Assembly (NCBI GenBank): GCA_905182235.1
Contig: CAJJAM010000016.1
Span: 1-64,000 of the forward strand
Origin: SAR86 cluster bacterium SAR86B
Lineage (GTDB): Bacteria; Pseudomonadota; Gammaproteobacteria; Magnimaribacterales; Magnimaribacteraceae
Direction: 5' to 3'
Length of the DNA stretch: 64,000 nt
The notes under the pieces: generated by a model
Database searches by the model: none
What the model saw: only the letters and a program-made list of their open reading frames with translations
What the model was told of the DNA's origin: nothing
Shown: in pieces, positions 10,321-61,024 of the stretch
Position numbering within the stretch: the stretch's first letter is position 1
Layout: every line of letters begins with the position of its first letter
Made by a program: the position numbers and the translations under genes

Positions 10321-10333
10321 TATACTGCGCAGC
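10321..10333 (+). promoter_or_regulatory. putative rhlE promoter -10 with GCGC discriminator
   Basis: TATACT-GCGCAGC, 60 nt upstream of the rhlE ATG. Confidence 0.4.
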
Positions 10334-11971: not shown

Positions 11972-12047
11972 TGGTGCCCCCTGTAGGATTCGAACCTACG
12001 ACCAAAAGATTAAGAGTCTTCTGCTCTACCAACTGAGCTAAGGAGGC
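11972..12047 (-). tRNA. tRNA-Lys (anticodon CTT)
   Basis: Reverse complement GCCTCCTTAGCTCAGTTGGTAGAGCAGAAGACTCTTAATCTTTTGGTCGTAGGTTCGAATCCTACAGGGGGCACCA; 7-bp acceptor stem, loop CTCTTAA, encoded CCA. Confidence 0.95.
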
Positions 12048-21974: not shown

Positions 21975-22051
21975 TGGTGGGCCCGGAAGGACTCGAACCT
22001 TCGACCAATGGATTATGAGTCCACTGCTCTAACCAACTGAGCTACAGGCCC
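21975..22051 (-). tRNA. tRNA with CAT anticodon (Met or lysidine-modified Ile2)
   Basis: Reverse complement GGGCCTGTAGCTCAGTTGGTTAGAGCAGTGGACTCATAATCCATTGGTCGAAGGTTCGAGTCCTTCCGGGCCCACCA; acceptor GGGCCTG/CGGGCCC, loop CTCATAA, encoded CCA. Confidence 0.93.
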
Positions 22052-23966: not shown

Positions 23967-23980
23967 CGTCGGGCATTATA
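23967..23980 (-). promoter_or_regulatory. putative rpoD promoter -10 with GC-rich discriminator
   Basis: Minus strand TATAAT-GCCCGACG just upstream of the rpoD start; no clear -35. Confidence 0.4.
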
Positions 23981-32517: not shown

Positions 32518-32545
32518 TTGCGAATTAAAACAACTTCAGTATAGT
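32518..32545 (+). promoter_or_regulatory. putative sigma-70 promoter for the first RRM gene
   Basis: TTGCGA, 16-nt spacer, TATAGT, followed by discriminator GGCGCGCG. Confidence 0.5.
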
Positions 32546-32592
32546 GGCGCGCGTAACAGTTGGTTACATAGTTAATTAGGAATAAATAGATA

Positions 32593-32838
32593 ATGAATCT
32601 TTACGTTGGAAATCTTCCCTGGGGTATCTCAGAAGAAGAACTTGAATCTCATTTTGCTCAGCACGGAAGTGTTAAAGCAGTCAGAATAATTACTGAAGGT
32701 GATTCAGGTCGATCTAAAGGTTTTGGATTTGTTGAAATGGAATCAGGCGAAGCCGGTCAGGCTGCAATTGATAACCTTGACGGCAAAGATTTTGGTGGAA
32801 GGGACTTAAAAGTCAACGAAGCTAAACCTAGAGATTAA
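32593..32838 (+). CDS. small RRM-domain RNA-binding protein (copy 1)
   Basis: NLYVGNLPW (RNP2), SKGFGFVEM (RNP1), 81 aa. Confidence 0.93.
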   Translation: MNLYVGNLPWGISEEELESHFAQHGSVKAVRIITEGDSGRSKGFGFVEMESGEAGQAAIDNLDGKDFGGRDLKVNEAKPRD

Positions 32839-32966: not shown

Positions 32967-33212
32967 ATGAATTTATATGTTGGAAACTTACCGTGGACCT
33001 GTTCAGAAGAAGAAATTGAAGCATTATTTGCTCAGTACGGAGACGTCAAAACAGTTAGAATCATCACCGATCGCGATTCAGGTCGCTCAAAAGGTTTTGG
33101 TTTTGTTGAAATGACAGATTCAAATGGCGGCACTGCTGCTATTGAAGCTCTTGACGGAAATGATTTTTCTGGAAGAGACCTTAGAGTCAACGAAGCAAAA
33201 GAAAGAAGCTAG
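32967..33212 (+). CDS. small RRM-domain RNA-binding protein (copy 2)
   Basis: NLYVGNLPW, SKGFGFVEM; about 58 of 81 residues match copy 1 by hand alignment. Confidence 0.93.
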   Translation: MNLYVGNLPWTCSEEEIEALFAQYGDVKTVRIITDRDSGRSKGFGFVEMTDSNGGTAAIEALDGNDFSGRDLRVNEAKERS

Positions 33213-53185: not shown

Positions 53186-53260
53186 TTGATTATCTACTTA
53201 ACATACATTCTGAGGACAAATAAAAAAAAAGAAAGGCTTTCCAAAATAAAAAGGCTTCTA

Positions 53261-53276
53261 TAGAATTGCGCAACCC
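53261..53276 (+). promoter_or_regulatory. putative rpsU promoter -10 with GCGC discriminator
   Basis: TAGAATTGCGCAACCC upstream of the rpsU ATG. Confidence 0.5.
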
Positions 53277-53292
53277 AAAGCGGTTAAAGTAT

Positions 53293-53508
53293 ATGCCATC
53301 AATAAAAATTAGACCTAACGAATCATTTGACATTGGACTCAGAAAGTTCAAACGTGCTGTAGAAAAAGCAGGAATTATTCCTGAAGTAAGGAAAAGAGAA
53401 TTCTACGAAAAACCTACAGCAGTTTTAAAAAGAAAGAAGGCCGCTGCTGTTAAGAGAGAACAAAAAAATCATAAAAGCAACAAATTGGGACGCCCTCCTC
53501 GTTTCTAA
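53293..53508 (+). CDS. rpsU: 30S ribosomal protein S21
   Basis: [55 protein letters not shown]; start moved from track TTG 53266 to ATG 53293 (71 aa). Confidence 0.96.
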
Positions 53509-58504: not shown

Positions 58505-58519
58505 TAGAATGCGCAACCC
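58505..58519 (+). promoter_or_regulatory. putative rpoZ promoter -10 with GCGC discriminator
   Basis: TAGAATGCGCAACCC, nearly identical to TAGAATTGCGCAACCC upstream of rpsU. Confidence 0.5.
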
Positions 58520-58539: not shown

Positions 58540-58812
58540 ATGGCAAGAATTACAGTAGAGGATGCTTTAGAAAAAGTATCTACTAGATACGAACTAATTA
58601 TTCTAGCTTCCAAAAGAGCTAGGCAGCTCGCAACTGGTGGCAGAAGAGCCACTCTGGAGTGGGATGATGACAAACCTACTGTTATGGCTTTAAGAGAAAT
58701 AGAAGCCGGTACTGTCACTGTAGAAAACATCAATGACCTTAAAGTTGATATTGCTGACCTAGAACAAGAATTTTCTGAAGAATTATCAGCTGAAGATTTC
58801 CCTAAAAGATAA
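58540..58812 (+). CDS. rpoZ: RNA polymerase omega subunit
   Basis: [34 protein letters not shown]. Confidence 0.97.
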
Positions 58813-58879: not shown

Positions 58880-61024
58880 ATGGACTCAATAAGCGCATTA
58901 TCAAAAAAACTTTCCGATTACTTGGAACCGAAACAGGTTGAACAAGTGCAGAGGGCTTATAAATTAGCTTGTGAAGCCCACTCGGGTCAGTTCCGATCAA
59001 GCGGAGATCCCTACGTTAGTCACCCAATTGCTGTAGCTAGTATTTTAGGTTCATTTAGAATGGATGAAGATAGCCTTTCAGCTGCGATGTTACATGATGT
59101 AATAGAAGACTCAGGTATTCCAAAAAGTCTTATTGAAAAAAAATTCAATAAGGACGTTGCTAATCTGGTCGATGGAGTAAGCAAACTTGATCAACTAAAA
59201 ATTTCTACTCAAACTGAAGCTCAAGCTGAGAATTTCCAAAAAATGGTACTTGCTATGGCTAAAGACATTAGAGTTATTGTCGTTAAGCTTGCAGACAGAC
59301 TGCACAATATGCGTACCTTGTTTTATTTAGACAGAGAAAAACAATTAAGAATAGCTAAGGAAACGTTGGAAATTTATTCTCCTATAGCACATCGAATAGG
59401 AATGAATAGTGTATATAGAGAGCTTGAAGATTTAGCTTTTCAAACAATTTACCCTACTAGACATGAGCGACTTACCTCTGCAATAAAAAAGAACAGGGGT
59501 AGCCAAAATAAAGTTATTAAAAAGATGCAAAAAGACCTCGAAAAAAGACTCCATCAGGGTGGCTTGCCTGCTTTGATTGAAGGACGAGAAAAACACGTTT
59601 ACAGCATTTATCGAAAAATGAAGGAAAGAAAAAGATCTTTTGATGAAATCATGGATGTTTTTGCTCTAAAAATTATCGTAGATACACCAGCAAATTGTTA
59701 TAAAGCACTTGGTCTAGTTCATGGCATTTACAAACCTGTGGATGGCAGGTTTAAAGACTACATTGCCCTGCCTAAATCTAATGGTTATCAATCTATCCAC
59801 ACTGGAGTCGTAGGAATTGAAGGGCTTTCAGTAGAAATCCAATTAAAAACTCAAGAAATGGATGATATGGCAGAAAATGGCATTGCGTCTCACTGGCTCT
59901 ATAAATCAGGCAATAAATCCGATACTAGCCCTCAAGTAAAAGCAAGAAGATGGGTTGCAAACCTATTAGAGATGAGCGAAAGTTATGATTCATCTAAAGA
60001 ATTCATAGAATCGGTAAAAACCGATATATTTCCTGACGAGATCTATGTTTTTACCCCTCAAGGAAAGATCATGGAAATGTCTGCAGGCTCAACAGCTATA
60101 GATTTTGCCTACGCCGTGCATACAGATATAGGTCATCATTGCAGAGCTTGCAGAATTAATAGAAAACTTGCTCCTTTAAGTGTCCCCTTAGAAAGCGGCC
60201 AGACTATAGAAATACTCCGAGACCCTCTACCTCAAACTTCACCTGCTTGGCTAAATTTTGCTGTTACCCCTAGAGCAAGAAACAGCATTAGACATTATCT
60301 GAGTAATTTAAAAACTTCAGAAGCAAAGAAATTTGGAAAAAAACTATTAGATCAATCTCTTCAATCAATGAGTATAAGGTTAAGGGATTTAGATAAAGAT
60401 GATCTAAGAAGTGCCCTGGATAGTCTTGGAGTAAGAAGTTTAAATAAACTTCTAGAAGAAATCGGATTAGGAAAAAGAGTAGGCAATATCGTAGCCATGC
60501 AAATATCCAACTCTTTAAACCAGACAGGAAATAAGAAGTCAAAAGATGTCGTTCCTCTTGAAATTACTGGCTCAGAAGGACTGATAGTTAACTTTGCGAT
60601 TTGTTGTAAGCCCATACCTGGCGACTCAGTTATAGGTCATTTTACAGCTGAAAGAGGCCTAGTTGTTCACCAAGAACGATGCAAAAATATTTTAGCAGTG
60701 AGAGAAGATCCAACGCAGTGCTTCCCTCTCAATTGGCATCAAGAATTAAGTAGAACTTTCTCAGTTGAGATAAAGATAATCGCTAATGACGAACCGGGAC
60801 TTCTGGCTAATATAGCATCATCTATTGCCCAAGCAGGTACTGATATCTCTTCTATAAAGACTCATGAACCAGAATCAGGAATCTATGAATTTAATCTTGA
60901 CCTGCAAGTCTCTGACAGACTGCACTTATCGAAAGTAATTAGAAGACTGAAGACTCTTAAGGCAATAATATCGGTAAATCGAATACATGATCAAGAAATG
61001 CGAAAAATAAAAACCCTTCATTAG
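58880..61024 (+). CDS. spoT: bifunctional (p)ppGpp synthetase/hydrolase (SpoT/RSH)
   Basis: SHPIAVASIL...AAMLHDVIEDSG (HD), GREKHVYSIYRKMK, GRFKDYIALPKSNGYQSIHT, TGS and ACT-like C-terminus. Confidence 0.96.
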   Translation: MDSISALSKKLSDYLEPKQVEQVQRAYKLACEAHSGQFRSSGDPYVSHPIAVASILGSFRMDEDSLSAAMLHDVIEDSGIPKSLIEKKFNKDVANLVDGVSKLDQLKISTQTEAQAENFQKMVLAMAKDIRVIVVKLADRLHNMRTLFYLDREKQLRIAKETLEIYSPIAHRIGMNSVYRELEDLAFQTIYPTRHERLTSAIKKNRGSQNKVIKKMQKDLEKRLHQGGLPALIEGREKHVYSIYRKMKERKRSFDEIMDVFALKIIVDTPANCYKALGLVHGIYKPVDGRFKDYIALPKSNGYQSIHTGVVGIEGLSVEIQLKTQEMDDMAENGIASHWLYKSGNKSDTSPQVKARRWVANLLEMSESYDSSKEFIESVKTDIFPDEIYVFTPQGKIMEMSAGSTAIDFAYAVHTDIGHHCRACRINRKLAPLSVPLESGQTIEILRDPLPQTSPAWLNFAVTPRARNSIRHYLSNLKTSEAKKFGKKLLDQSLQSMSIRLRDLDKDDLRSALDSLGVRSLNKLLEEIGLGKRVGNIVAMQISNSLNQTGNKKSKDVVPLEITGSEGLIVNFAICCKPIPGDSVIGHFTAERGLVVHQERCKNILAVREDPTQCFPLNWHQELSRTFSVEIKIIANDEPGLLANIASSIAQAGTDISSIKTHEPESGIYEFNLDLQVSDRLHLSKVIRRLKTLKAIISVNRIHDQEMRKIKTLH

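Follow-up and report, generated by a model that had tools for sequence, protein, structure and literature searches.

A G/C-rich discriminator is a known signature of starvation-sensitive growth genes. In E. coli the rrnB P1 promoter reads TATAATGCGCCACCAC and the DksA/TraR pathway activates amino-acid biosynthesis promoters (PMC6970531), and at genome scale the G/C content of the discriminator is linked to both ppGpp and supercoiling (PMC8422995). A literature search gave nothing directly usable, whether on the promoters of SAR86 or on control of rpsU by ppGpp/DksA. Bacteria of the SAR86 cluster abound in the surface ocean and can scarcely be obtained as cultures, so that what is understood of their growth control comes chiefly from sequence. 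The predicted SAR86 promoters described here resemble E. coli rrnB P1 and the stringent stable-RNA promoters in that a -10 element is followed by GCGC..CC at rRNA, ribosomal and RNA-polymerase genes, and they differ in that several amino-acid biosynthesis genes carry a G/C-rich discriminator too. They are probably ordinary sigma-70 promoters with the G/C-rich, C-rich discriminators of the rRNA (stringent, growth-rate-controlled) type.

The window, that is, the whole stretch of DNA analysed, comprises 64,000 nt of SAR86 cluster bacterium SAR86B, whose own genome (G000) amounts to 1,062,435 bases in 44 contigs. An earlier note on this DNA had quoted five sequences, all of which are present: TAGAATTGCGCAACCC at rpsU (53261-53276, + strand), TAGAATGCGCAACCC at rpoZ (58505-58519, +), TATACTGCGCAGC at rhlE (10321-10333, +), TATAGTGGCGCGCG at the first of two RRM genes (32540-32553, +) and TATAATGCCCGACG at rpoD (23967-23980, - strand). 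Family models confirmed the identity of rpsU, rpoZ, spoT, rpoD and both RRM genes; the helicase at the rhlE locus is RhlE-like, with a score under the curated cut-off. The rpsU, rpoZ, rpoD and RRM elements lie ~20-50 bases 5' of the start codons. Comparison with a plasmid collection returned a single distant match only.

The rpsU gene (53293..53508, +; ribosomal protein S21, TIGR00030, E 3e-20) is preceded by a predicted -35 element, TTTCCA (53238..53243, +), proposed from sequence and conservation and replaced by TTTGCA in several relatives, and, at a distance of 17 nt, by a predicted -10 element, TAGAAT (53261..53266, +), followed by the G/C-rich discriminator TGCGCA (53267..53272, +), which is conserved in the family. 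TATAGAATTGC is invariant among 23 distinct family leaders gathered by searching for TATAGAATTG, a pattern present at all but one (L245) of 38 loci, and the conservation of TATAGAATTGC is also visible in a family comparison made without that selection. An A-tract resembling an UP element (AAATAAAAAAAAAGAAA, 53218..53234, +), conserved in the upstream regions of the family, lies 5' of the -35 in the short divergent gap between tsaD and rpsU. At rpoZ (58540..58812, +; omega subunit, TIGR00690), which is directly followed by spoT (58880-61024, +; TIGR00691), the predicted -10 is again TAGAAT (58505..58510, +) and the -35 is weak. TAGAATGC is retained there in most of the family, and the discriminator with the predicted start region, GCGCAACCC (58511..58519, +), is G/C- and C-rich in relatives, its exact letters drifting. 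The neighbours are those of E. coli, where tsaD is likewise divergent to rpsU and the order gmk-rpoZ-spoT is the same; E. coli rpsU (TATACT-CCTCACCC) and rpoZ (TATCAT-GCCCAGTC) are also G/C- or C-rich after a -10-like site. The two differ in that the E. coli rpsU gene, at the head of dnaG-rpoD, is preceded by a long leader, whereas the rpsU leader of SAR86 measures ~20 nt and bears a terminal hairpin, with rpoD ~29 kb off.

Within the genome the rpsU and rpoZ elements are identical at 15 of 16 positions and GCGCAACCC is rare, with 5 copies in 1.06 Mb against 0 for the reversed control: the rpsU and rpoZ promoters, one copy within 16S rRNA and two apparently internal to other sequence. Both points would favour a dedicated operator shared by the two genes for a specific regulator. 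Yet rpoZ in same-genus relatives already reads GCCCAACCC or GCGCTCCCC, with CAACCC changed, and the CCC of rpsU belongs to a hairpin in which it covaries with the partner arm. The operator, largely refuted by this drift, strikes us as very improbable. Because near relatives alter CAACCC yet keep the -10 and the G/C-rich discriminator, the exact identity is, on these comparisons, mostly a local coincidence, and it is only in its -10 and discriminator that the shared rpsU/rpoZ element proposed in the earlier note is conserved. Relatives retain the -10 element together with a G/C-rich discriminator and, in many cases, a C run near the expected start.

Conservation in place extends to the -10 elements and G/C-rich discriminators of rpsU, rpoZ, rpoD and the first RRM gene across ~30 family genomes. 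The rpoD element of the window, TATAAT-GCCCGACG, is TATAAT-TGCGCACCC in relatives, and in those of two other genera it is TATAATTGCGCACCC or TATAATTGCCCACCC, nearer to the rpsU element than is the window's own rpoD; the first RRM gene keeps TATAGT and a G/C-rich stretch (GGCGCGCG in the window) throughout the family. The rhlE element (TATACT-GCGCAGC) was sought in the family and is absent even from the nearest relative, which has TATAATGGTCTCGC, and rhlE was for that reason rejected as a member of the class; the related GCGC discriminators once suggested for rpoD, RRM and rhlE are thus conserved at the first two only. The loose motif TANAATNGCGC, with one mismatch allowed, is not enriched in the 64-kb window (7 found, 10 expected). 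Broad-motif enrichment was rejected on these counts; because the broad motif stands at chance level, the case rests on position and conservation and not on raw counts. Chance matches in an AT-rich genome would account for such numbers as well as for the unconserved rhlE site, for which this reading stands. As an explanation of the whole set it is scarcely credible: the alignment of orthologous upstream regions, a check proposed in the earlier note, found four of the five sites conserved in place, which refutes chance for rpsU, rpoZ, rpoD and RRM, and the correlation of discriminator G+C between orthologous promoters (see below) also speaks against it.

The genome's own rRNA promoter, upstream of 16S, is TATACT-GCGCGTCCC (TATACTGCGCGTCCC; G000:C30:29524-29538, - strand, locus L004), and TATACTGCGCGTCCC has one match in the genome and none for the reversed control. 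This promoter carries the same discriminator element as the growth-gene sites. In a relative, G007, TATACTGCGCTGCCC stands at the rRNA promoter, G/C-rich discriminators occur at tRNA-Tyr, tRNA-Thr and tRNA-Cys, and the rpsL promoter shows TACAATTCGCGACC without change in G000 and G007 alike. Immediately after TATACTGCGCGTCCC at L004 comes a hairpin, CCCTTCT-GAAG-AGAAGGGG, where the rRNA transcript is expected to begin.

Genome-wide statistics drew on about half of G007, on pattern searches across all of G000 and on ~442 kb of G000 sequence, the window included. In the G007 half, a discriminator G+C of at least 0.75 after TANAAT was found in 18 of 289 cases upstream of genes versus 19 of 913 inside them (Fisher p = 0.001). 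Counts of TANAAT-GCGC are tiny, 3 versus 1 (p = 0.045). The 18 genes are hisB, atpB, cytochrome c, pseudoazurin, aroC, argC, rpoZ, rpoD, typA, rhodanese, rpsU, aroG, coxB, rpsL, an aminotransferase, a MiaB-type gene (start uncertain), an HpcH-type aldolase and photolyase; a sample of genes with AT-rich discriminators is mainly catabolic and miscellaneous. Growth functions (translation, RNA polymerase, respiration, ATP synthase and amino-acid synthesis) account for 13/18 of the G/C-rich genes versus 6/19, p = 0.02, with classes assigned by hand after the lists were seen. Translation and RNA polymerase alone do not differ significantly among these G007 genes (5/18 versus 2/19, p = 0.23).

Across 60 orthologous promoter pairs of G000 and G007 the discriminator G+C is correlated (rho 0.48, p = 9e-5), and the spacer G+C of the same pairs shows no significant correlation (rho 0.15, p = 0.25). 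Both discriminators are high in G+C in 11 pairs, against 3.25 expected: RRM, pseudoazurin, rpoD, rpoZ, rpsL, acyl-CoA dehydrogenase, argC (a doubtful pairing, since in G000 a site other than the obvious one was computed), rpsU, metK, a TonB receptor and threonine dehydratase. Translation and RNA-polymerase genes make up five of these 11 conserved cases, and none was recognised among the 11 AT-rich ones, 10 of which could be named. Judged by these comparisons, the promoter class is genuine, with a bias towards growth functions. It does not form the private translation/RNA polymerase regulon which the earlier note had envisaged, because hisB, argC, aroC, aroG, atpB and cytochrome genes share the discriminator; with coxB, the TonB receptor and acyl-CoA dehydrogenase also carrying the element, the class takes in amino-acid biosynthesis and respiration. 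The G/C-rich discriminators of hisB, argC, aroG and aroC (G007 loci L087, L133, L138 and L146) run contrary to the expectation from E. coli.

As in the setting of the E. coli stringent promoters, SAR86 possesses DksA and residues that contact ppGpp; that its promoters respond to ppGpp we infer. DksA was found in 22 of the 25 genomes searched, G000 among them, and on alignment to the E. coli protein it keeps D74, A76, R91, L95, K98 and K139. The beta-prime fragment keeps R417, K615, D622, Y626, N680 and K681, as counted on an alignment sharing the E. coli chain numbering range, with R362 outside the fragment, and the omega N-terminus is MARIT. We take the residues listed to be ppGpp contacts or residues of DksA function. 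Conserved predicted promoters with a -10 and a G/C-rich discriminator, an rRNA promoter of like form, a ppGpp synthase (SpoT), DksA and the tested contact residues are thus all found together, in keeping with the stringent-type promoters that had been suggested, which are not restricted to the genes originally listed.

An alternative is that the discriminators mark supercoiling-sensitive, or merely strong, housekeeping promoters and that SAR86 has no special ppGpp control. The presence of atpB, coxB, cytochrome c and biosynthetic genes in the set would fit this, and discriminator G/C sets the supercoiling response independently of ppGpp (PMC8422995). We consider it rather unlikely, given that SAR86 retains DksA, SpoT and every ppGpp-contact residue tested, and that rRNA, rpsU and rpoD have the rRNA-like form GCGC..CCC in common.

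Under the preferred reading, promoters of the rRNA type, for which ppGpp regulation and all transcription starts are predictions, a G/C-rich discriminator would give short-lived open complexes, and transcription of rpsU, rpoZ-spoT, rpoD, rpsL, rRNA and other growth genes would therefore fall when ppGpp and DksA act on RNA polymerase or when supercoiling drops. The equation of "G/C-rich" with "ppGpp-repressed" may not transfer simply, because hisB, argC, aroC and aroG carry the discriminator, yet DksA/TraR activates such promoters in E. coli. The set is best read as real and conserved, and mostly as a fresh example of known stringent or growth-rate control, which here extends to amino-acid synthesis genes and is accompanied by two candidate leader RNAs. 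Its conserved rRNA-like discriminators provide a testable list of genes expected to drop in starvation, and suggest that an oligotroph with a small genome may switch its biosynthesis genes with ribosomes and not against them.

Control of rpsU and the first RRM gene is likely to include a further, post-transcriptional layer, in which a short 5' hairpin could protect the 5' end of the message. In Flavobacterium johnsoniae bS21 is autoregulated through an extended Shine-Dalgarno sequence sensed by ribosomes without bS21 (PMC9976891). Control of rpsU translation start around the ribosome-binding sequence would be a feature common to both organisms, although for SAR86 we infer it only; SAR86 belongs to another phylum and its rpsU has a short hairpin and no extended Shine-Dalgarno.

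The predicted rpsU transcript begins at or beside a 3-5-pair stem, which in the window is AACC/GGTT (53272..53285, +) and in relatives shows compensatory changes: AACCC/GGGTT in the genus and TCCC/GGGA, TTCC/GGAA, CTC/GAG, GACCT/GGGTT or GACTT/AGGTT elsewhere. Its mean stem score and folding energy beat all shuffles (0/5000 and 0/300), a significance which relatedness inflates; slid versions, which preserve relatedness, all score lower on the machine alignment. On that alignment, in which some loops are misplaced, 72.5% of cells are paired versus 63.1%, with 21 compensatory cells versus 8.6, and on a hand alignment, which favours structure, 87 of 105 cells pair versus 65 when shuffled. The hairpin is lost in 3 of 23 distinct leaders. 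Stronger than this is the 5'-proximal hairpin of the first RRM mRNA, GTAAC/GTTAC (32553..32567, +): 88.5% of its cells are paired, 17 are compensatory where shuffling gives 5.3, no slid version exceeds 62.5% paired and the MFE z is -7.9.

Folding of the rpoZ and rpoD leaders revealed no hairpins, both folding less than shuffles; a leader structure common to all sites was rejected, and since these two leaders are unstructured the shared leader element of the earlier note is absent. Nor was there an excess of 5'-terminal hairpins at G/C-discriminator promoters generally in G007, and such hairpins were rejected as a general trait of these promoters. A literature search found nothing on bacterial RRM leaders.

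The 3' arm of the rpsU hairpin, ~8-14 nt 5' of the start codon, sits near, or overlaps, the ribosome-binding region, and the hairpin may on that account limit translation as well; at the RRM gene the likely AGGA site is 3' of the hairpin, which makes protection of the end or binding of a protein the likelier role. A broader proposal is that these family-specific hairpins control the translation or stability of their own messages, the ribosome-binding region of rpsU being masked according to S21 or ribosome state, and that amino-acid synthesis is under stringent-type repression, unlike in E. coli; taken as a whole it seems to us doubtful. Each of the two compensating hairpins is a concrete candidate for a new small regulatory RNA element, that of the first RRM gene as an autoregulatory or stability element. 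Rfam detected no ribosomal-protein leader family in the window, its only two matches being tRNA genes at 21978-22051 and 11975-12047 (- strand). The products of the two RRM genes, which lie in tandem (32593-32838 and 32967-33212, +), are RRM-domain proteins that match the NCBIfam "RNA-binding regulator" model, with a score just below the cut-off for the first and above it for the second.
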